Shown: in pieces, positions 4,221 to 56,275 of the stretch
How the letters are laid out: every line of letters begins with the position of its first letter
Position numbering within the stretch: the stretch's first letter is position 1
From: Reichenbachiella agarivorans
GTDB lineage: Bacteria; Bacteroidota; Bacteroidia; Cytophagales; Cyclobacteriaceae
Direction: 5' to 3'
Assembly: GCF_025502585.1 (NCBI RefSeq)
Contig: NZ_CP106679.1
Coordinates: forward strand, 725,001-789,000
Length of the DNA stretch: 64,000 nt
Translations under genes and position numbers: made by a program
Notes under the pieces: model-generated
The model's input: the letters and a program-made list of their open reading frames with translations, nothing else
Databases searched by the model: none
Told to the model about the DNA's origin: nothing

Positions 4221-5999
4221 ATGACTGATATAAGGAATGTAGCAATTATTGCTCACGTTGACCATGGCAAAACTACATTGGTTGACAAAATCATTTATGC
4301 AGCACAAGCAAATGATGCAAAAAGATCACAGGACAACAATGATTTGATCCTCGATTCAAATGATCTTGAGAAGGAGCGTGGTATCACCATTCTCTCAAAA
4401 AATGTATCTGTACAATACAAAGGAACTAAAATCAACATCATTGATACTCCTGGTCACGCCGATTTCGGAGGTGAAGTAGAAAGAGTATTGAGCATGGCCG
4501 ATGGTGTAATCTTGCTTGTAGATGCATTCGAAGGCGCTATGCCTCAGACACGATTCGTATTGGGCAAGGCACTTGGCCTTGGATTGAAGCCTATCGTAGT
4601 AGTCAACAAAGTGGACAAAGAAAACTGCCGTCCAGATGAAGTACACGAAGAAGTTTTCGACTTGATGTTCAACCTAGAGGCTACAGAAGATCAGTTGGAT
4701 TTCCCTACGCTATACGGTTCTTCTAAAAACGGCTGGATGAGCCATGATTGGAAAAATGAAACTGACAATCTAGAACCACTTTTGGATACGATTCTTGAGA
4801 AAATCCCTGCACCTGAGCAAAAAGAAGGCGTATTGAGATTGAAAATCACCTCATTGGATTTCTCGGCATTTACAGGACGTATCGCCATCGGTAGAATCCA
4901 CCAAGGATCTATCAAAGTAGGACAAAGCCTAGGTTTGACCAAAATTGACGGTACCGTCAAAAGAGTAAGAATCAAAGAATTGCACGTATTCGAAGGGTTG
5001 GGCAAGAGAAGTGTCGAAGAAGTAACCTGTGGAGATATCTGCGCAGTGACTGGTATCGAAAGCTTTGATATCGGCGACACCATCACTGATTTTGACAATC
5101 CAGAACCACTAGAAAGAGTAGGTGTAGATGAACCAACCATGAACATGCTCTTCACTATCAACAACTCACCATTCTTTGGGAAGGAAGGGAAATTTGTCAC
5201 CTCAAGACACTTGAGAGACAGATTGATGAAAGAAATAGAAAAGAATTTGGCATTAAAAGTAGAATCAACAGATAGTGAGGATAAATTCTTGGTTTATGGT
5301 AGAGGCGTACTTCACTTGTCTGTTTTGATAGAAACGATGAGAAGAGAAGGGTATGAACTACAAGTGGGTCAGCCACAGGTAATCTACAAGGAAATTGATG
5401 GCAAGAAACACGAGCCAATCGAACACCTTGTGATCGACGTGCCAGAAGAAGTGTCTGGAAAAGCCATCGAATTGGTGACCAAAAGAAAAGGTGAAATGAC
5501 GATCATGGAACCTAAAGGTGATGTACAGCATTTGGAATTCAACATCCCAGCCAGAGGTTTGATTGGATTGAGAAACCAAGTATTGACAGCTACTGCTGGA
5601 GAAGCTGTGATGACACACAGATTCAGTGGATATGAGCCATACAAAGGCGACATTCCTGAGCGTATGAATGGTTCGTTGGTATCCATGGAAACAGGACCTG
5701 GTACAGCTTATGCTATTGACAAATTGCAAGACAGAGGTATATTCTTCGTCTCTCCAGGTGATGAGTTGTACGTAGGTCAGGTAATCGGTGAGCACTCTCG
5801 TGCCAATGATTTGGCTGTCAACATCCAAAAAGGAAAGCAATTGACTAACATGAGAAAATCTGGTACAGACGCAAGTATGAAAATTGCACCTGCCAAAAAA
5901 TTCTCATTGGAAGAAGCATTGGAATACATCAACAAGGATGAGTATGTAGAGGTGACTCCACTTTCTCTCCGAATGAGAAAAATCAATTTCAAGGCTTAA
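4221..5999 (+). CDS. typA: Translational GTPase TypA/BipA
   Basis: A full-length 592-residue member of the EF-G-like GTPases that binds ribosomes and assists 50S assembly and stress adaptation. GTPase motifs are all present: G1 AHVDHGKTT (residues 11-19), switch I ERGIT (52-56), G3 DTPGH (75-79) and G4 NKVD (129-132). Domain II, an EF-G-like domain and the TypA-specific C-terminal region (ARGLIGLRNQVLTAT, GPGTAYAIDKLQDRG) follow in the expected order. It is monocistronic, with its own -7 box and a terminator just after the stop. Confidence 0.97.
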   Translation: MTDIRNVAIIAHVDHGKTTLVDKIIYAAQANDAKRSQDNNDLILDSNDLEKERGITILSKNVSVQYKGTKINIIDTPGHADFGGEVERVLSMADGVILLVDAFEGAMPQTRFVLGKALGLGLKPIVVVNKVDKENCRPDEVHEEVFDLMFNLEATEDQLDFPTLYGSSKNGWMSHDWKNETDNLEPLLDTILEKIPAPEQKEGVLRLKITSLDFSAFTGRIAIGRIHQGSIKVGQSLGLTKIDGTVKRVRIKELHVFEGLGKRSVEEVTCGDICAVTGIESFDIGDTITDFDNPEPLERVGVDEPTMNMLFTINNSPFFGKEGKFVTSRHLRDRLMKEIEKNLALKVESTDSEDKFLVYGRGVLHLSVLIETMRREGYELQVGQPQVIYKEIDGKKHEPIEHLVIDVPEEVSGKAIELVTKRKGEMTIMEPKGDVQHLEFNIPARGLIGLRNQVLTATAGEAVMTHRFSGYEPYKGDIPERMNGSLVSMETGPGTAYAIDKLQDRGIFFVSPGDELYVGQVIGEHSRANDLAVNIQKGKQLTNMRKSGTDASMKIAPAKKFSLEEALEYINKDEYVEVTPLSLRMRKINFKA

Positions 6000-37274: not shown

Positions 37275-38338
37275 AATTACTCAACACATTCAAAGGCAAA
37301 AAAATCTTCCTTACAGGACATACAGGTTTCAAAGGCAGTTGGATGCTCGTATTGCTCCACCACCTAGGCGCACAGGTAAAAGGCTATGCACTGGAGGCAG
37401 AGCAAACCAGCCTCTATCGTCAAATTGATGGCGATCTAATGTGTGATTCAGTAATCGCTGATTTGAGGGATGCTGATCGCTTAAATACCGAAATCAAACA
37501 ATTCTCTCCAGATTTTGTGTTTCACTTTGCAGCTCAGCCTTTGGTGATTGATTCGTACAATGACCCCAAATATACTTTTGATGTCAATATCGGAGGAACT
37601 GTCAACGTGCTAGAAGCTTTCAGGAAACTTGACCATCCATGTAGCCTATTGGCCATCACCACAGACAAAGTCTACAAAAACAAGGAATCATCTATTCCCT
37701 ATCAAGAAAGTGACGAGCTGGGAGGTCATGATCCCTATAGTGCCAGCAAAGCAGCCATGGAAATCGTGTTACAATCCTACATCAATAGCTTTGGTCTCAA
37801 TGGTCAAAATCAGAAAACCTCTGTGATTGGCAGAGCTGGCAATGTGATTGGTGGGGGGGATTGGGCCACCAACCGAATTGTTCCAGACATAGCTAGGTCT
37901 CTGCTCAAAAACGAGACCTTGGTTCTCAGAAATCCTCATGCGATTCGACCATGGCAACATGTATTGGATGCATTGATGGGCTACTTATTAGCTATCGCTC
38001 AATCTCACATCAGCGAAAACTACATATACAATTTTGGCCCAGATACAGAGGAAAAAATCAATGTAGAAGACCTTACCAAAATAGCCATGAAAGTCACGGG
38101 AAGAGGAAATTATACCATTGATCAAAATCTAACAGCACTTAAAGAAACGGGGCAGCTATTGCTAGACAGCAACAGAGCCAAAAAAGAACTTGGCTGGCGA
38201 CCCGTTTGGAACGGGCAAGAGGCCATCAGTCAAGCTATGAATTGGTATTTGCGTTATGAGGGTGGTGAAGAACCTCTCCATATTTGTCAAACCAATATCT
38301 CTAACTATTTGGAATCTGCAAAAAACCAATATGTCTAA
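37271..38338 (+). CDS. rfbG: CDP-glucose 4,6-dehydratase
   Basis: A 355-residue SDR enzyme that converts CDP-glucose to CDP-4-keto-6-deoxyglucose. The N-terminal Rossmann motif GHTGFKGSWMLVLLHHLGA is characteristic of RfbG. Other marks are FHFAAQPLVIDSY, the TTDKVYKNKE active-site segment, the PYSASK Y-x3-K motif and NVIGGGDWATNRIVPDIA. The gene overlaps the methyltransferase by 4 bp (ATGA). The product is the branch point for several 6-deoxysugars; RfbH (3-dehydratase) is not present in this cluster. High confidence. Confidence 0.94.
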   Translation: MKLLNTFKGKKIFLTGHTGFKGSWMLVLLHHLGAQVKGYALEAEQTSLYRQIDGDLMCDSVIADLRDADRLNTEIKQFSPDFVFHFAAQPLVIDSYNDPKYTFDVNIGGTVNVLEAFRKLDHPCSLLAITTDKVYKNKESSIPYQESDELGGHDPYSASKAAMEIVLQSYINSFGLNGQNQKTSVIGRAGNVIGGGDWATNRIVPDIARSLLKNETLVLRNPHAIRPWQHVLDALMGYLLAIAQSHISENYIYNFGPDTEEKINVEDLTKIAMKVTGRGNYTIDQNLTALKETGQLLLDSNRAKKELGWRPVWNGQEAISQAMNWYLRYEGGEEPLHICQTNISNYLESAKNQYV

Positions 38339-39212
38339 AATAGCAATCATTGGCTCCTCTTCCTTTCTAGCCAAGTCTTTGGTCAAATGCCTTACAAATC
38401 GTGATCACAAGCTATATGGCCGTCAAGAAGCTTCGTGCTATAGTTTCCCTAGCATCAGTTTCTTATCTGGATTTGACATACAGCAGATTTTATCCAGTGA
38501 AGTCATCTATTATTGTGCGGGTCAAGGTATTCAACCCAAAAACTCAGACGACGTATCTCTGATCTATGAGCTCAATACTTTTGAACCCATTCGTTTGATC
38601 AACGCTCTCATTGGACTCGGTTATACAGGAAAAATAGTGACCTTTGGTTCCTATTTCGAGTTTGGCAATTCTCAGAATAATGTCCCCTTTGATGAAAACC
38701 TATTCATTAATAATACCAATCCAAAACCCAACAACTACTGTATCTCCAAATCTTTGTTGACCACCTTCGTTGACACGCAAATAGCAAACGGTCATCAACA
38801 ACTACTTCATTTTGTACTACCCAACATCTACGGTGCAGGAGAAAACAAACACCGTTTGTTTCCCTACATAGTCGATTGTATAGCCCACCAACAGCACATG
38901 ACATTCAGTGCTGGTACACAGACACGACAGTTTGTACATGTCGATGATGTAGCAGAGATCGTGACCGACAGGCAAATACAATCCCACTCAGGCATTTACC
39001 ATCTTGGTGGGACGACCCAAACACTAAAGGAAGTAATTTCTGAAGCCATCCATGCATTGACACATGGGGCATTTGAGGATTTTGAATTCACAAACATGGA
39101 AAGAAGAGACACTAGCATGCAATACCTCGCTATGGATGACACCAAAGCCCGGACTGATCTGGGTTGGAATCCCAACCGAGAGATTAAAAATGAAATCTTG
39201 AAATACAAATGA
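38331..39212 (+). CDS. NAD-dependent epimerase/reductase of the CDP-sugar path
   Basis: A 293-residue SDR protein from ATG 38331, overlapping rfbG by 8 bp; the frame from 38256 lies inside rfbG. The N-terminus is IAIIGSSSFLAKSLV, a less classical GxxxFxA Rossmann start. The tyrosine-lysine pair is likely in NNYCISKSLL. IYHLGGTTQTLKEVI and FVHVDDVAEIV fit sugar reductases such as RfbJ/RmlD-like enzymes. It probably reduces or epimerises C4 of the CDP-4-keto sugar. The exact product is unknown. Confidence 0.8.
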   Translation: MSKIAIIGSSSFLAKSLVKCLTNRDHKLYGRQEASCYSFPSISFLSGFDIQQILSSEVIYYCAGQGIQPKNSDDVSLIYELNTFEPIRLINALIGLGYTGKIVTFGSYFEFGNSQNNVPFDENLFINNTNPKPNNYCISKSLLTTFVDTQIANGHQQLLHFVLPNIYGAGENKHRLFPYIVDCIAHQQHMTFSAGTQTRQFVHVDDVAEIVTDRQIQSHSGIYHLGGTTQTLKEVISEAIHALTHGAFEDFEFTNMERRDTSMQYLAMDDTKARTDLGWNPNREIKNEILKYK

Positions 39213-39718
39213 AAATTCTGAAAGAATTGCCGGGTGGCATTTTACTGATAGAGTCGCCACGCTTTCAAGACGAAAGAGGTGGATTCATGAAGTTGTTTAA
39301 CCATGACACTCCATTACACAAATACGCGATCGCACAGGTCAATTATGTTCAAAATCGCGAATCGGGAATACTAAGAGGACTCCATTTTCAAAAAGGAGGG
39401 TTTGCAGAATCCAAGTTCTTTAGAGTACTCACTGGTCAAATCAATTTGGTCTACTTGGACGTCAATCCTGAGAGTACAACTTATCAACTTTCTGGTTCAT
39501 ATATTCTAGATCAAGCACAGCTGGGATTATTAATACCTGAAGGGTTTGCTACTGGATATGAGGTACTGACTCCCCATACAGATGTCCTCTATTATTCCAA
39601 CAAGGATTATCATCCAGAAGCAGAAGGTGGTGTCAACTGGCAGCACCCATTGGTTGTCAATCATTGGAAAACCAATATGCCCATCGTATCAGAAAAAGAC
39701 AAAAACTGGCCCCTATGA
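39209..39718 (+). CDS. RmlC-like sugar 3,5-epimerase (CDP-sugar type inferred)
   Basis: A 169-residue cupin of the dTDP-4-dehydrorhamnose 3,5-epimerase family, overlapping the previous gene by 4 bp (ATGA). Catalytic histidine is in LRGLHFQ, and the aspartate is in SEKDKNW near the C-terminus. Unlike typical RmlC (GFAHGF), it has GFATGY, so a conserved histidine is replaced by threonine; the usual WxDP near 148 reads WQHP. This, plus the CDP context (rfbF, rfbG), suggests a 3- or 5-epimerase of a CDP-4-keto-6-deoxysugar rather than a rhamnose enzyme. The substrate is inferred. Confidence 0.78.
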   Translation: MKILKELPGGILLIESPRFQDERGGFMKLFNHDTPLHKYAIAQVNYVQNRESGILRGLHFQKGGFAESKFFRVLTGQINLVYLDVNPESTTYQLSGSYILDQAQLGLLIPEGFATGYEVLTPHTDVLYYSNKDYHPEAEGGVNWQHPLVVNHWKTNMPIVSEKDKNWPL

Positions 39719-40647
39719 ATCGCATAATAGACATCCTCATTCCCACTTACAACCGATGTGAGTTTTTGGCTAAAAACATCCAATTACTTGTCCAACAGAT
39801 ATCAGAAGCCAACCTACAAGACCAAGTAGCCATCTGTGTTTCTGACAATTGCTCTAGTGACCATACACAAGCGACAGTCCAAGAACTCATCCAAGCAAAT
39901 CCCACGATCAGTATCTACTACCATAGACAAAATACCAACATAGGTTTAGAACCCAATGTAGTAGACCTAATGGGACGGGCAGTGAGTCCATACGTGATGT
40001 GGATTGGTGATGATGATTACATAGCTGATGGCTATTTGGCCTACTGTGTAGCACAGATTCAAGAACAAAACATAGGATGCATTATTCCAGGCTTAAAAAA
40101 TTTGAATGCAGATGGCACAGTGGTCGATGCTAGAAATGAATCCTTTGCATCCAAGACATATGAGCCAGGCTATGAGACAATGTGGGCCATTTCTCATTTG
40201 GCTCACCAAATGTCTGGAATACTCTTGACTAGAGATAGTCTTTTAGAAAGCTACCTAGACAAACCAGCCTATCGCAATCCATATTTGTTCATATTTTGGA
40301 CAGCTGACTGCTTGTTTCGTTTGGGCGGTATTTACGCTCCCATATACAAAACGGGCATTACTACTTTCAATGCGAAAGATTGGGGATACAACCAAGTGGG
40401 ACTTTTGGATGAGGTTTTCAAATCATACTACTATTTCGAAAGCAAAGTGAGTCCCATACAACTCAGAGAGCTCCTCCTTCGCTTTTCAAAAATGCACTCG
40501 TATCGTTATAACATCAGAAAGTACGAACCTTTGAAATTGCTAAAGAAGTATAAAATCCTATGCTCCACCCTCCCAATACAGTTGCGGGGGTTTAATTATC
40601 ATTTAGCCTTGCATTTAATCAAAGACTATGCTAAGAGTTGGCTATAA
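39715..40647 (+). CDS. Glycosyltransferase family 2
   Basis: A 310-residue GT-A-fold glycosyltransferase from ATG 39715, overlapping the epimerase by 4 bp; a frame from 39664 is inside the preceding gene. The nucleotide-binding start is IDILIPTYNRCEFLAKNIQ, with the acidic VSDNCSSD and the metal-binding WIGDDDYIADGY pattern. It lacks membrane segments. It probably adds the CDP-derived sugar made by the upstream genes, since the whole cluster is translationally coupled. It is followed by the non-coding repeat island. Confidence 0.86.
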   Translation: MNRIIDILIPTYNRCEFLAKNIQLLVQQISEANLQDQVAICVSDNCSSDHTQATVQELIQANPTISIYYHRQNTNIGLEPNVVDLMGRAVSPYVMWIGDDDYIADGYLAYCVAQIQEQNIGCIIPGLKNLNADGTVVDARNESFASKTYEPGYETMWAISHLAHQMSGILLTRDSLLESYLDKPAYRNPYLFIFWTADCLFRLGGIYAPIYKTGITTFNAKDWGYNQVGLLDEVFKSYYYFESKVSPIQLRELLLRFSKMHSYRYNIRKYEPLKLLKKYKILCSTLPIQLRGFNYHLALHLIKDYAKSWL

Positions 40648-41030
40648 CTGCTACCAATAACATGTGCAAAATAGTTTCAGAACGTCTCCATTCAGCTCCT
40701 GTGGAGTGTAAACTCAGGCTATTAATACACATCAATTACACAAAACATACTTGAAAATTTTCATTTCTCCTCATCCTTTCTTAGTTTAGAAATAGCAGAC
40801 CATTGAGACTAACCCCCTATTAAAACCAACTATACGATGAAATGCCAACCCCAACCCACCCCTCTGACAGACTGCTCGTCTGTACAGTCAAATATCAAAA
40901 ATACAGTATGCCATCTCTCCCTTAGAAAAGGGATAAATGCGACCCCAATATTATTCATTACTGGCTAGCAATCACGCTACACCCTAGGCAAATAGCAAAA
41001 CACTGTAGAGAAACAACACAACACCCGCTA
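40648..41030. other. Intergenic region before the 21-bp repeat array
   Basis: 383 bp without a supported gene. It contains the small hairpin ACAGAC-TGCTC-GTCTGT at 40867-40883. The stop-to-start gap of the locus here is about 640 bp, the longest in the window. Confidence 0.6.
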
Positions 41031-41056
41031 GAAATGGCTCGTCACCGTTGATGAAT
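41031..41056 (-). repeat. Inverted unit flanking the 21-bp repeat array
   Basis: AAATGGCTC (41032-41040) is the exact reverse complement of GAGCCATTT at 41179-41187. In all, about 18 of 26 positions complement the repeat region 41162-41187. A transcript could fold back on the array. Confidence 0.6.
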
Positions 41057-41245
41057 GATTTTTTGGAGGGGAAATATGATTTTCTCGTGGTACTGAGTCA
41101 TTTCCTTAGGGTGCTAAGCCATATGATAGAGGGTGCGAATGATTCCTTTATGGTGACGAACCATTTCTTCATGGTACTGAGCCATTTTATCACCGTCCTC
41201 TGTCATTTCCCCACAGTACTCAATAGTCCTATCATGGGATATGCT
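41057..41245 (+). repeat. Array of about nine imperfect 21-bp tandem repeats
   Basis: Units start at 41057, 41078, 41099, 41120, 41141, 41162, 41183, 41204 and 41225. The best-conserved ones (41099, 41162, 41204) share CATTTC at the 5' end and a GTxCT core. The first and last are degenerate. No unique spacers occur, so it is not a CRISPR. The 21-bp period keeps one frame open (66 codons, 41048-41248; a HFxxVLS heptapeptide pattern). The array ends 43 bp before the gene at 41289. Confidence 0.85.
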
Positions 41246-41288
41246 TAATTAATTATCAAATATATTTTTTCACCTAAAACAATCTAAC

Positions 41289-41942
41289 ATGAACAATCAA
41301 ACAATTGATGCGCAACTGCTACAAGCAGAAGTAGCCATTCACAACGCTACTACCAACGATGCTGTCAAAAGTGCAATGGCGCTATACGGCTATGACACTA
41401 CGAAAGTAGCGGAGAATCAAGCTTTGCTTGATCAAGGAAAAACACTCCACACCAAGCAAAAGAAAGAGTATGGTGAACAGTATTCGGCCACCGATGCACT
41501 TTCCAAATCAATGAAAACAGCAGACAAATGGTACATAAAGCATGTCAAAATTGCGAGGATAGCACTCAAAAACGAGCGTGGGATCTGGCAATCACTCCAA
41601 ATCAATGGAAGACGCAAAAAAAGTCAGTCAGGCTGGGTCAGTCAAGCCACGGTATTTTACCTGAATGCGTTGAGCAACCCTGATGTCCTCACGGCTATGA
41701 ACCAATTCGGGGTGAGCCAAGAGGTACTAGCGAGCACACAATTACTGGTGCAAGATGTCGCCAACAAGCTGTCTATTCAACTCAAAGAAACGGGAGAAGC
41801 CCAAGACGCCACCATCAAAAGGGATGAAGCACTAGACCTACTGATGGATTGGATGAGTGATTTCAAAGCCATTGCCCGCATTGCTCTTGAGGATGATGCA
41901 CAATTGCTGGAGATGCTCGGTATCGTTAAAGCAGCAGCCTAA
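41289..41942 (+). CDS. Helical protein of unknown function next to the repeat array
   Basis: I do not recognise a named family. The 217-residue product is soluble, without leader or membrane helix, and strongly helical. It is in two parts: residues 1-95 (acidic and basic helices, MKTADKWYIKHVKIARIALKNERG) and 95-217 (QINGRRKKSQSGWVSQATVFYLNALSNPDV to DWMSDFKAIARIALEDDAQLLEMLGI). The ARIAL-(K/E)-(N/D) motif occurs twice (about 85 and 200), so the protein may contain an internal repeat of a bundle domain. It stands between two glycosyltransferase genes with its own strong terminator, suggesting an independent unit inserted in the locus. Confidence 0.8.
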   Translation: MNNQTIDAQLLQAEVAIHNATTNDAVKSAMALYGYDTTKVAENQALLDQGKTLHTKQKKEYGEQYSATDALSKSMKTADKWYIKHVKIARIALKNERGIWQSLQINGRRKKSQSGWVSQATVFYLNALSNPDVLTAMNQFGVSQEVLASTQLLVQDVANKLSIQLKETGEAQDATIKRDEALDLLMDWMSDFKAIARIALEDDAQLLEMLGIVKAAA

Positions 41943-41947
41943 TCAAC

Positions 41948-41986
41948 AAGCCCTGACAGGTTTCAAAAACCTGTCAGGGCTTTTTT
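41948..41986 (+). terminator. Strong terminator after the repeat-associated gene
   Basis: A perfect 16-bp stem (41948-41963 with 41967-41982), 3-nt loop CAA, followed by a T run. Confidence 0.95.
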
Positions 41987-42034
41987 GGTCACATGAAAGA
42001 GTTGAGATCTGCATCAATTGTGCTTAATAGGATG

Positions 42035-42244
42035 AAGGGGCGTAGCCCTGATATCTTCGTAGTATTTGTGCGATAATGAGTCTTGAGGGACGTTAGTCCT
42101 GACATCTTAGATGGAAAAGGCTAATGGGGCACACACCGTGCCGAGGCAGACATTTTTTTAGATGTCAGGGCTAGCGCCCCTTTTGTGTAGCAGACTCTTT
42201 TTATCTACGAAGATGCCAGAGCTACGCTCCTTTTCTTGTACTAT
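42035..42244. repeat. Four stem-loop units in nested inverted order
   Basis: Units a (42035-42062) and b (42085-42110) run forward; c (42158-42184) and d (42215-42244) run reverse, so a faces d and b faces c. In common orientation they share a GGGC-GTA-GCCC-T-GA-ATCT core. The stems read GGGC/GCCC in a and c, GGAC/GTCC in b and GAGC/GCTC in d, which keeps pairing by compensatory change. No gene fits in this 331-bp spacer. Confidence 0.82.
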
Positions 42245-42273
42245 CCCCCAGCTTCTCATTATCTTGCCACCTG

Positions 42274-43362
42274 ATGAATCTCATAGACAAAAACATACTA
42301 CTGATCTCCCCCGAACCTTGGGATCATATCTTTGTTTCCAAGCATCACTATGCACGGCACTTGGCGGAGCGGGGCAACCGAGTAGTGTTTGCCAACCCAC
42401 CTCAAGACAAATGGAGTGTCCACTCTACGGGCATTGACAACTTGAAAGTGCTGAATTACCCCAAATTTCTCAAAGGGTTAAGGAAACTGCCTTCTTTTGT
42501 CTCACGAAGACTGATCAAACACAAACTTCAACAAATAGAAAAGCACTGTGGGCTCACGTTTGACATCATCTGGTCCTTTGACAATTCGGTATTCTTCGAC
42601 TTTACCCTGCTAGACACCTACAACATCTCGCACATCGTCGATTTGAATCAGGATTTTGAAACCAAAAAAGCTGCTCAAACAGCCGATATTTGCTTTTATA
42701 CCACCCAACATATCGGAGACCGTCTTTTGCATTTCAACACCAACGCCCATTTCATCAATCATGGCTATAATGCCAAACCCTCATCCAATCCTAAAATCCT
42801 ACCAGGTGAACACTCCACCAAAGTGCTCTATGCAGGGAATCTCAATATGCCGTATTTGGATTGGCAACATATGCAAGATGCTATTCTCAAAAACCCAGAA
42901 GCAGACTTCATCTTTTTGGGGCCACTAGACAAAGAACAAATTAATCAGAACCCAACATGGCAATCCTTGACGGAGTTATTCCATCACGATAGAGTCTTTT
43001 TTTTGGGAAAAGTCCTGGCAGACGAACTTCCCTCATACTATGCTGCAGCAGACATCTTGACCATCTGCTACCAAGACAAACACCACGAAGATCAAGCCAA
43101 CCCTCACAAAATGATGGAGTACCTAGGTACAGGCAAAATGATCGCCGCAACCTACACAGGGACTTTTGCCCAATACAAGTCTCCAATCATTGCCATGTGT
43201 ACACAAAATGCGAGCTTTGCCGAGCAAATCCGCAAATGCATCACCCATATCAAGGAATGGAACGATCAGTCATGGCAACAAAAACGCAAAGCCATCGCCC
43301 AAGACAACAGCTACAATCGGCAAATCGAGCGCATAGAAAACAAAATTAGCAACCATGCCTGA
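42274..43362 (+). CDS. Glycosyltransferase, GT4-like
   Basis: A 362-residue GT-B-type transferase. It opens with KNILLISPEPWDHIFVSKHHYARHLAERGNRVVFANPP, and the C-terminal half shows VLYAGNLNMPYLDW, FLGKVLADELPSYYAAADILTICYQ and NPHKMMEYLGTGKMIAATYTG, the donor-binding pattern with a conserved glutamate in MMEYL. First gene after the repeat island, overlapping the next gene by 8 bp. Acceptor and donor are unknown; the position puts it in glycan assembly. Confidence 0.84.
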   Translation: MNLIDKNILLISPEPWDHIFVSKHHYARHLAERGNRVVFANPPQDKWSVHSTGIDNLKVLNYPKFLKGLRKLPSFVSRRLIKHKLQQIEKHCGLTFDIIWSFDNSVFFDFTLLDTYNISHIVDLNQDFETKKAAQTADICFYTTQHIGDRLLHFNTNAHFINHGYNAKPSSNPKILPGEHSTKVLYAGNLNMPYLDWQHMQDAILKNPEADFIFLGPLDKEQINQNPTWQSLTELFHHDRVFFLGKVLADELPSYYAAADILTICYQDKHHEDQANPHKMMEYLGTGKMIAATYTGTFAQYKSPIIAMCTQNASFAEQIRKCITHIKEWNDQSWQQKRKAIAQDNSYNRQIERIENKISNHA

Positions 43363-44170
43363 ACTCGTGTCCATCATCATGCCTGTCTACAATGCGGAGA
43401 AGTATGTCGCAGAAGCCATCGAGTCAGTATTGGCACAAAGTCATACGAACTGGGAACTGCTCGTGATCAATGACGGCAGTACAGATCGCTCTGCCGAGAT
43501 AATCCAACGCTACGACGACCCCCGCATACACTTTGTAACACAAGCAAACCAAGGTGTCAGTGCCGCTCGCAACGTAGGTCTAAAACTGATGACGGGAGAT
43601 TACTTTTGTTTTTTGGATGGAGATGATAGAATGACGACTGAGGGATTATCTAGCCGCTTAGCCGTTTTCGAAGGTGAGCCTGCGTTGAGTTTCGTTGATG
43701 GTGCTGTGACTTACTTCGATCAGTATGGCATCATCAAAAACAAAGGATATGTTCCTACATTTCATGGATTGGTCTTTGATAGATTGTTGAGACTCGACAA
43801 TTCTTGTTTCTTTGGCAATACATGGATGATAAAAAGAACCGAACTTGTATATCAATTCGACACTGACATGACTCATTCGGAAGATTTGTGGTTTTATATC
43901 CAACTAGCCAAAGGCAAATCTTATCACTGTACAAATCAAGTCATACTTGAATACAGACAATCCAATACATCCGCGATGAAAAATCTCCAAGGACTAGAAA
44001 AGGGCTATCGAGATGTAATCAAGAAAACAAGGATGATGAATTTGGCAAGTGGGTCACAGATTTTCTATCTACGATCAAGAATTTGTAGAATCATGTTCCT
44101 TTCCTACCTTTTTGATGGCAAAAAACTGGCATCAGCACTAGTATGTCCGTTTAGAATATTTACAGCATGA
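43355..44170 (+). CDS. Glycosyltransferase family 2
   Basis: A 271-residue GT-A enzyme: VSIIMPVYNAEKYVAEAIESVLAQSHTNWELLVINDGSTDRSAEI is the textbook family 2 start, and YFCFLDGDDRM supplies the DxD-like metal site. MTHSEDLWFYIQLA carries the catalytic ED motif. It overlaps both neighbours (8 bp upstream, 4 bp downstream), so it belongs to a translationally coupled run of three glycosyltransferase genes. Confidence 0.9.
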   Translation: MPELVSIIMPVYNAEKYVAEAIESVLAQSHTNWELLVINDGSTDRSAEIIQRYDDPRIHFVTQANQGVSAARNVGLKLMTGDYFCFLDGDDRMTTEGLSSRLAVFEGEPALSFVDGAVTYFDQYGIIKNKGYVPTFHGLVFDRLLRLDNSCFFGNTWMIKRTELVYQFDTDMTHSEDLWFYIQLAKGKSYHCTNQVILEYRQSNTSAMKNLQGLEKGYRDVIKKTRMMNLASGSQIFYLRSRICRIMFLSYLFDGKKLASALVCPFRIFTA

Positions 44171-45384
44171 AACAACCTATCCCTATATTGGTATTCATCT
44201 ACAACAGCTACAGGGACCCCTTGTTTCAAAACCTGCTATTGCGCTACATCAAAACCTTGAGCGAAAACGGCTGTTACAGGTTTGACCTAATCACTTTCGA
44301 ACAGCCCGAATATGCACTGACTGCCGAAGAAACACAACAAGAAAAGAAAGAACTAGAGGATTACAACATCTACTGGCACCCTAGGAAATTCCACACGGGA
44401 CGATTTCTACTGATCAAAAAGGCCATTGACGTGATTACTACTTTCTTTCTTGTGTTCAGTATAAAGTTAAAATACAAGACTCAATACATTTTTGCATTTG
44501 CCAATGTGGCAGCAGCCATTTCAGTAATATTCACTCGTTTGCTCAATCTCAAACTGGTGATCTATAGTTATGAACCTCATAGTGATTTCATGGTCGAACT
44601 CGGACTATGGCAAAAGAGTAGTTGGAACTATCTAATCCTCAATAGTTTAGAAAAAATGGCTGCTCGACATGCCAGCGACATCATGACAGGCACTATTCAC
44701 ATGGTCGAAAAATTGAAAGCTGAAGGGATAAAAGCCAAAGTATATCGCGCTCCCACCGCTGTAGATTCTGGGACTTTTTATTTCAAGCCCGAAGCAAGGT
44801 ACGAATTGAGAAAATCCCTAGACGTACATGACAAGACTGTATATATATACCCAGGCAAACTAGGCGGCCTCTATTATGAAAGGGAAATCATCAACCTATT
44901 CGCAGCACTCTATGCTCATGACGACCATGCCTTCTTTTTGATAGCGACAAACTACGATCATGACAAGATTGTCACATGGATGAAAGAAGAAAACATTCCT
45001 CAAAGTGCTTATCATTTGAGACCGTTTATTCCGTCCAGCCAAATGCCCGACTATCTCAGCGCAGCTGATATGGGCATAGTGGCAATCCCACCTACTCCCT
45101 CCCAAAAATTTAGGTCTCCCACAAAAGTCGCCGAATACTTGCTTTGCGGGTTGCCATACATTGTTTGCAAGGGTATCTCAGAAGACGATACAATAGCAAA
45201 AGAACACAAAGTTGGTATAGTTTTAAATCAATATTCTAAAAACAATGCGGTATCTGACATGACAAGAATATCTGCATTGTTACTGGTAGATAAATCCGTG
45301 ATGCAACAAAGGTGTATCAACATTGGGTTGACATATAGATCGTATCAAAATATTATCAATGTACTTTATAATATCTTTGTATGA
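44167..45384 (+). CDS. Glycosyltransferase, GT4 group 1
   Basis: A 405-residue GT-B enzyme. The N-terminal half (RFDLITFEQPEYAL, KLVIYSYEPHSDFMVELGLW) resembles Glyco_transf_4 acceptor domains. The C-terminal half carries YPGKLGGLYYEREIINLFAAL and the donor-site segments DYLSAADMGIVAIPPTPSQKFRSPTKVAEYLLCGLPYIVCKG. Last of three overlapping glycosyltransferase genes (4-bp overlap with the previous one). The DNA of its last 200 bp becomes more AT-rich toward the following sulfotransferase. Confidence 0.85.
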   Translation: MKQPIPILVFIYNSYRDPLFQNLLLRYIKTLSENGCYRFDLITFEQPEYALTAEETQQEKKELEDYNIYWHPRKFHTGRFLLIKKAIDVITTFFLVFSIKLKYKTQYIFAFANVAAAISVIFTRLLNLKLVIYSYEPHSDFMVELGLWQKSSWNYLILNSLEKMAARHASDIMTGTIHMVEKLKAEGIKAKVYRAPTAVDSGTFYFKPEARYELRKSLDVHDKTVYIYPGKLGGLYYEREIINLFAALYAHDDHAFFLIATNYDHDKIVTWMKEENIPQSAYHLRPFIPSSQMPDYLSAADMGIVAIPPTPSQKFRSPTKVAEYLLCGLPYIVCKGISEDDTIAKEHKVGIVLNQYSKNNAVSDMTRISALLLVDKSVMQQRCINIGLTYRSYQNIINVLYNIFV

Positions 45385-56171: not shown

Positions 56172-56208
56172 CAGTCAGGCAACTCCCCAAATTCCATTAA
56201 GATTGAAA

Positions 56209-56275
56209 ATCTTGAATCTTGAATCTTGAATCTTGAATCTTGAATCTTGAATCTTGAATCTTGAATCTTGAATCT
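56209..56275 (+). repeat. Exact heptamer tandem array, (ATCTTGA) x 9.5
   Basis: Nine identical 7-bp units (ATCTTGA), then ATCT. An imperfect unit (ATTGAAA) precedes it at 56202-56208. It lies between the IS and the rlmN promoter. Confidence 0.95.

Follow-up and report, generated by a model that had tools for sequence, protein, structure and literature searches.

The locus considered here, in the chromosome of Reichenbachiella agarivorans (a single contig of 4.47 Mb), consists of a row of short imperfect repeats followed by a small gene, and interrupts a polysaccharide block between two genes which we take to be glycosyltransferase-like; it raises the question of whether repeats and gene form one unit and, if so, whether the repeats work as DNA, as RNA or as coding sequence. 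The window, i.e. the whole stretch of DNA analysed, spans 64,000 nucleotides (positions 725,001 to 789,000 of contig NZ_CP106679.1), and coordinates quoted without a locus label refer to it. The features on which the argument rests are the following:

40974..41057, minus strand: left block, about four units of 21 bp in the opposite orientation to the main block (units printed in register, and chain score)
41057..41224, plus strand: main block of eight 21-bp units, consensus roughly CATTTnnTnAnGGTrCTGAGY
41225..41288, plus strand: AT-rich gap from the array to the start codon, presumed promoter site
41289..41942, plus strand: PQLLE-family gene, 217 aa, for an all-helical protein of two similar halves (NF052641 and AlphaFold2)
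41945..41985, plus strand: terminator-like hairpin, a dispersed repeat (consensus terminator scan and genome matches)

The array comprises about 12 units of 21 bp (40974-41224), arranged upstream of the gene as two head-on blocks which keep a common 21-bp phase, its copies being 63-78% alike. The period-21 signal over about 41078-41225 reaches a z of 7.6, against 5.6 for the top resampled control, and the chain score on a 21-bp grid is 221, against 133 +/- 8 (maximum 157) in shuffled upstream regions; on both measures the tandem array claimed upstream of the gene in the preliminary description is real, and longer than had been supposed. The same description had counted a single inverted unit: the inversion stands, the reverse complement of 41179-41187 being present as AAATGGCTC at 41032-41040, whereas the number has to be raised to at least two inverted units, in phase with the rest. 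Of these, the units at 41016-41036 and 41037-41057 are clear, while the two left-most (40974-41015) are degenerate; the first of the eight right-facing units, from 41057, is weak. A tandem-repeat program detected the array in pieces only. Identical repeats with unique spacers, as in a CRISPR, were not found at the locus, the units being contiguous and imperfect. Counted from the last clear unit (41224), the distance to the ATG is 64 bp rather than the 43 bp given earlier. No perfect copy of TAnnTTTG, the -7 promoter element of Bacteroidota, was met on scanning 41225-41288, so that the promoter position at this locus is a presumed one.

The protein encoded downstream matches the NCBIfam model NF052641 (PQLLE_fam) with 251.5 bits, for a cut-off of 80, over positions 1-211 of 211; the entry, as shown, mentions neither a function nor an array. 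As had been anticipated for these 217 residues, the AlphaFold2 model is all helical (pLDDT 97, pTM 0.86), each half combining a pair of short helices with a helix of 56 residues and a short terminal one, and the two ARIAL motifs pointed out beforehand do occur, at equivalent positions of the duplicated halves. The protein has a pI of 6.3 and a net charge of -1. Searches in Pfam and PADLOC gave no family above cut-off and no PADLOC match, and no toxin family or fold was matched in Pfam, PADLOC or the fold searches; likewise, no HTH or other DNA-binding fold was recognised in Pfam, NCBIfam or Foldseek, a result which does not exclude one. Sequence searches of the PDB returned nothing over the cut-off (best E 0.0019 with the single protein, 0.022 with a profile), the weak matches being unrelated helical or coiled segments and glycosidases. 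Fold searches of the model in PDB and BFVD yielded no E below 0.001, and a VIA fold search gave Z values up to 9.3 to assorted long-helix proteins, a range expected for helical bundles. Matches in an Rfam scan of 39000-44000 were all far below gathering scores, plasmid records gave no match, and no replication or partition NTPase gene was recognised by eye among the neighbours in the window. On the plus strand, a terminator scan of 38000-45000 revealed one terminator-like site, at 41948, past the gene. The corresponding hairpin (41945-41985, CCTGACAGGTTT...AAACCTGTCAGG) is a good one, in keeping with the strong terminator described earlier; the adjective private, however, has to be dropped, parts of it matching four other places in the same genome and also three relatives (G002, G004 and G007).

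The association of array and gene can be judged from the PQLLE homologues, of which 113 open frames were collected. Periodicity was scored against a 99% threshold from resampled sequence with all lags from 12 to 63 open; 4 of the 113 rows, with less than 400 bp upstream, were left out of this lag scan, and the comparison over 107 rows also dropped two rows from one fragmentary locus. For the same genes, the open scan found periodic regions in 65/109 upstream sequences, 8/106 downstream and 3/107 far upstream. The best lags of the 65 upstream regions are 42 (35 cases), 41 (11), 21 (8), 43 (5) and 20 (2), the others being 61, 62 and 63, plus one region at 39; 64 of the 65 fall within 9 of the 52 lags scanned. 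A lag of the 21 class precedes 64/107 family members and 6/302 ordinary genes, the latter sampled over 464 kb of the host genome alone (Fisher p 1.6e-38, a nominal value, since homologues are not independent and the 107 span many genomes). A motif-chain test agrees, with 73/108 upstream regions against 14/105 downstream ones. The search for arrays before homologues, suggested with the preliminary description, thus came out in its favour; homologues devoid of a nearby periodic array, named there as the refuting case, form a minority (42/107, some 40%, with none detected at the chosen threshold), and the link otherwise holds. The pairing of array and gene is no accident, and their link is strong but not universal.

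The family itself is sporadically distributed. PQLLE is present in four of the eight genomes of the genus, where copies over the cut-off carry an array in 8 cases out of 9 (the exception is L039); in the bacterial family, 52 of 295 genomes have a match (34 above cut-off), and seven of them hold at least 10 scored copies each, while in the class the match is found in 11 of 395 genomes and above cut-off in 3, the host genome counted. Three loci from other bacterial families, outside these counts (L134, L144 and L135), show a 42-bp register by eye in two cases and none in the third. More distant relatives score 21-39 bits against the PQLLE model, far below its cut-off, and are nevertheless full-length homologues (hhalign 97.6%, E 3.7e-12, 209 columns); the model of one of them has a similar helix order (pLDDT 89, pTM 0.61), with a C-terminal half at nearly identical residue numbers to the PQLLE model. 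Their profile matches in 28/295 genomes of the class, the host genome included, and a C-terminal carboxypeptidase-regulatory-like domain occurs in 2 of the 10 scanned. Of 30 loci, 29 were used, without the window gene; upstream scoring was possible for 26 of them and downstream scoring for 28: periodic arrays precede the gene in 19/26 and follow it in 3/28, none of these three with a lag of the 21 class. Seven of the 26 had been seen earlier, the new ones contributing 12 hits out of 19, among which L248 has a best lag of 14. In the earlier list, made at a looser setting, 11 of 13 loci had an array, and one of the two misses, L137, scored as a hit on a second fetch (L250). In one subfamily (L042 and L043), the array is placed after the gene. 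The layout of gene and array recurs across a class of bacteria.

Comparison of the arrays reveals a constant geometry with changing sequence. Units are laid out head-to-tail, in alternation or in head-on blocks (the latter at the window locus and at L020, the PQLLE copy of G006, in the same genus), on a 21-bp grid, and their orientation relative to the gene varies among loci. Of the 699 unit steps counted in the 44 best arrays, 481 measure exactly 21 bp; this figure is biased, because the chain search admits no step outside 19-24 and gives preference to 21, whereas the open lag scan carries no such bias. A unit resembles the next but one more closely than the adjacent one, both in head-to-tail arrays (0.616 against 0.578; n=20) and in alternating ones (0.547 against 0.470; n=10), so that a higher-order unit of 42 bp exists; steps of 21 and 42 bp correspond to two and four turns of B-DNA. 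The repeats are alike within an array and differ from gene to gene: in the comparison of the 44 best arrays, motif similarity is near background where proteins are less than 50% identical, and attains 0.86 (median, 4 pairs) at more than 80% protein identity. Two loci of different genera, L004 and L054, have a motif similarity of 0.93 at 61% protein identity, with the motif of L006, from a third genus, close to both (0.74-0.75 at 54%); clearly differing motifs are found in some pairs at 62-75% protein identity (such as L049/L053, 0.38 at 73%; L079/L082, 0.24 at 65%). Judged from these comparisons, the repeat sequence is private to each pair of array and gene.

As to the level at which the repeats act, the locus array shows no folding advantage over shuffles (z of -1.3 on the sense and -1.2 on the antisense strand). 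For head-to-tail arrays (n=27), the mean z is -1.0 on the sense strand, where 3 of them lie below -3, and -1.3 on the antisense strand, where 6 do. Alternating arrays (n=14) give means of -3.2 and -3.4, equally on both strands because any inverted repeat does so, and their hairpin arms show no clear sign of pairing by covariation (adjacent units 0.470, third neighbours 0.458). The structured RNA with a binding protein envisaged in the preliminary description is not supported, in view of the lack of a folding signal, the varying orientation of the units and the absence of a terminator between array and gene (plus-strand consensus scan, 38000-45000). The element TAnnTTTG has 18 of its 49 occurrences 20-60 bp before the start codon (600 bp, 108 regions), partly since this stretch is AT-rich; it stands after the array in several alternating-array loci (e.g. 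L066, L081 and L094), but no perfect copy is present at the window locus or, within the close clade, at any other head-to-tail locus. An open frame of 66 aa crosses the locus array, and uninterrupted frames cross 11 of 44 arrays against 3.1 expected from shuffles, which ignore periodicity, itself enough to raise the count; a coding role nevertheless seems unlikely, since many unit steps are not divisible by three (53 out of 271 in the head-to-tail arrays). A step of two and four helical turns, conserved although the sequences are unrelated and the units face either way, agrees with sites lying on one face of double-stranded DNA.

Some loci bear traces of movement. L094 and L095, in one genome, encode proteins 99% identical, and the DNA identity spans array and gene and stops at the stop codon; with the coupling seen in homologues, this recent duplicate, in which both parts were copied, bears out the earlier view that array and gene belong together. 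In L056 and L057, which lie in different genomes of one genus, the array, the gene and about 50 bp beyond are shared, unlike the rest of their 1.5-kb flanks; farther out, common pieces of neighbourhood reappear, displaced by about 3.3 kb. In L104 and L111, neither with a detectable array, the gene and 0.5 kb upstream are common. The slot occupied in the window, upstream of a conserved gene at 42274, was compared in five relatives: in G004 the slot is taken by a PQLLE gene whose array differs, in G007 by a distant helical relative accompanied by its own array, and in G002 (L241:5253-5658, about 5791-5910) by a weak 22-bp array before a gene which is presumably HU-like; in G001 and G003 both gene and array are missing. 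Comparison of two regions gave no clean empty site, the G287 cassette lying in a stretch of about 7 kb that faces 3.4 kb of other sequence in G247. Among 298 open frames within 1.5 kb, no cluster of shared neighbours reached at least three loci save for one gene type, which we take to be RAYT-like (REP-associated tyrosine transposase), downstream at L050, L080 and L091. A two-part mobile cassette of array and gene is the best explanation of these comparisons.

Arrays also occur apart from the gene. In the host genome, at about 1229.8-1230.0 kb (L165:7795-7985), an orphan 21-bp array with the motif of the window array has no PQLLE gene nearby, and about 150 bp past it lies a gene for what we assume to be a YceI-like lipoprotein. 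A search with the window motif gave 31 hits, 3 of them in the window array, against 13 for a reversed control, and of six places fetched one was this orphan; a two-unit pattern scored 14 hits, with 2 for the control, and of the 14 the window array accounts for three and the orphan for two. With the motif of the paralogue, the hits numbered 26 and those of the control 14; five of the 26 fall within the paralogue's own array. The second PQLLE gene of the host genome sits within L166:3362-11929, in a neighbourhood which is possibly a defence island, its neighbours being presumably lookalikes of a KAP-type NTPase, a metallo-beta-lactamase-fold protein, a patatin-like phospholipase and an amidase. 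Elsewhere, an orphan array with the L057 motif is kept in G287 and G235. Three intergenic 21/42-bp arrays of the host genome (L186:17332-17560, L193:7757-8050 and L197:16345-16597) have ordinary neighbours and one common unit, about AGTGAATGGTTAGCGAGTCNT, whose genome-wide pattern hits (up to 3 mismatches) are confined to them. A nearly perfect 42-bp array of two 21-bp halves in the host genome (L188:15016-15300), between genes which we suppose to be transporter-like, contains an open frame of 14-residue repeats, and a second class of arrays in this genome, mostly intergenic and with a 22-bp step, has the palindromic cores AAACACCTGTGTTT, AAACCCGCGCGGGTTT and GGTAACGTTACC (L185:9247, L198:10414, L193:8306 and L194:17140). 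Within the window, 56208-56275 is a perfect 7-bp tandem repeat, AATCTTG, of 9.7 copies, a possible slippage site.

Taken together, the locus may be viewed as a mobile cassette of two parts: a set of DNA sites spaced on a grid of two helical turns and, behind it, the gene encoding a helical protein. We infer that the array acts as double-stranded DNA, with its sites on one helix face in either orientation, and that it would offer a multi-site platform to a sequence-specific factor private to each cassette. The simplest candidate for this factor, still a conjecture, is the encoded PQLLE protein, a rod with an internal duplication; its two halves would correspond to the 42-bp super-unit, and the module might then govern its own expression or build a nucleoprotein structure. 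We favour this account, a mobile cassette with a phased platform on which a dedicated factor, perhaps the PQLLE protein itself, would bind, while giving it somewhat less than an even chance. The 42/107 members in which no array was detected, the orphan arrays (one of them with the window motif), the subfamily with the array behind the gene, the differing motifs of some protein pairs at 62-75% identity and the lack of a recognised DNA-binding fold all speak against it. The pI has a median of 9.0 over 105 members of the family, but 17 of 19 proteins of the close clade fall at 4.7-6.3 and 10 of 11 distant relatives are acidic, which counts against the encoded protein as a DNA binder.

These same acidic proteins, for which no DNA-binding fold was recognised, are the starting point of a different account, unlikely but deserving attention, in which the array is bound by some other factor, a nucleoid protein or a regulator, as an upstream activating or insulating sequence, while the helical protein acts elsewhere. 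Orphan arrays adjoining ordinary genes agree with it, as does the G002 slot with its 22-bp array and presumably HU-like gene; with private repeats and no shared neighbour found within 1.5 kb except the RAYT-like gene in three loci, it would nonetheless require many factors, each encoded outside the cassette. It is rather improbable that the array is a recognition or recombination site for the mobility of the cassette (for instance by a trans-acting transposase), with the gene as cargo: although one duplicate has sharp borders, variable slots are occupied and three loci have presumed RAYT-like genes downstream, the array is one-sided as a rule, the 3' border at the stop codon is free of it, and neither a constant transposase neighbour nor, in the two regions compared, a clean empty site was encountered.

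The remaining readings concern transcription, chance and translation. Type III toxin-antitoxin systems have just such a layout, with a small gene immediately preceded by a repeat array, and alternating arrays, with a few head-to-tail ones, do fold better than shuffles; that the array is transcribed into a repeat RNA which binds the protein is all the same very improbable, in view of the mixed unit orientations, the continuity from array to gene with no terminator, the equal behaviour of both strands, the lack of a folding signal here and in most head-to-tail arrays, and the absence of any toxin match. No more credit can be given to a neutral minisatellite expanding by slippage and lying near the gene by chance, for which imperfect units alike within an array and the other 21- and 22-bp arrays of the genome could be quoted; it is opposed by the counts of 64/107 against 6/302, by the preference for upstream over downstream positions, by a step constant in unrelated sequences across the class and by a motif kept between genera at 61% protein identity. 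Finally, the array might encode a heptad-repeat (7-codon) peptide pairing with the helical protein, as the 66-aa frame and the 11 open frames in 44 arrays (a number inflated by periodicity) would allow; the 53 head-to-tail steps out of phase with codons and the common periods of 41 and 43 bp (16/65) make this scarcely believable.

Returning to the cassette with a phased DNA platform, a bolder extension can be formulated, which we regard as rather doubtful: a class-wide superfamily of mobile, self-recognising pairs, in which each protein would assemble on its own array and ignore those of its paralogues, orphans serving as remote landing sites. If true, many orthogonal nucleoprotein modules would coexist in one chromosome. 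A literature search, for the most part outside subscription papers and preprints, returned no description of this layout of array and gene. The array link is a new addition to the PQLLE family, known so far by a sequence motif only, and the combination of a helix-matched step with a copy-private sequence would be a new kind of pairing between cis-element and protein; the layout opens a superfamily devoid of assigned function to direct testing and supplies a natural collection of sites that may be orthogonal. Should PQLLE proteins be ordinary autoregulators with tandem operators, it would come closer to a known theme.

Among known systems, three invite comparison. Iterons with their initiator and ParR/parC partition sites have direct repeats of about 20 bp beside the gene of the binder; the likeness consists in two-turn repeats directly upstream of one gene and in a site sequence private to each system, whereas the cassette is chromosomal, present in many copies in some genomes, often encodes an acidic protein, and has no Rep or ParR domain or partner NTPase recognised nearby. 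With type III systems (toxIN), it has in common the tandem array directly upstream of a small gene, and differs in the missing intervening terminator, in the lack of an RNA structure signal, in a 21-bp grid used in both orientations and in an all-helical protein. REP/BIME elements with their RAYT transposases are dispersed intergenic repeats, partly in inverted pairs and of sporadic spread, all traits which the cassette shares; its protein, however, is unlike any transposase, and its repeats are tandem, private and phased.
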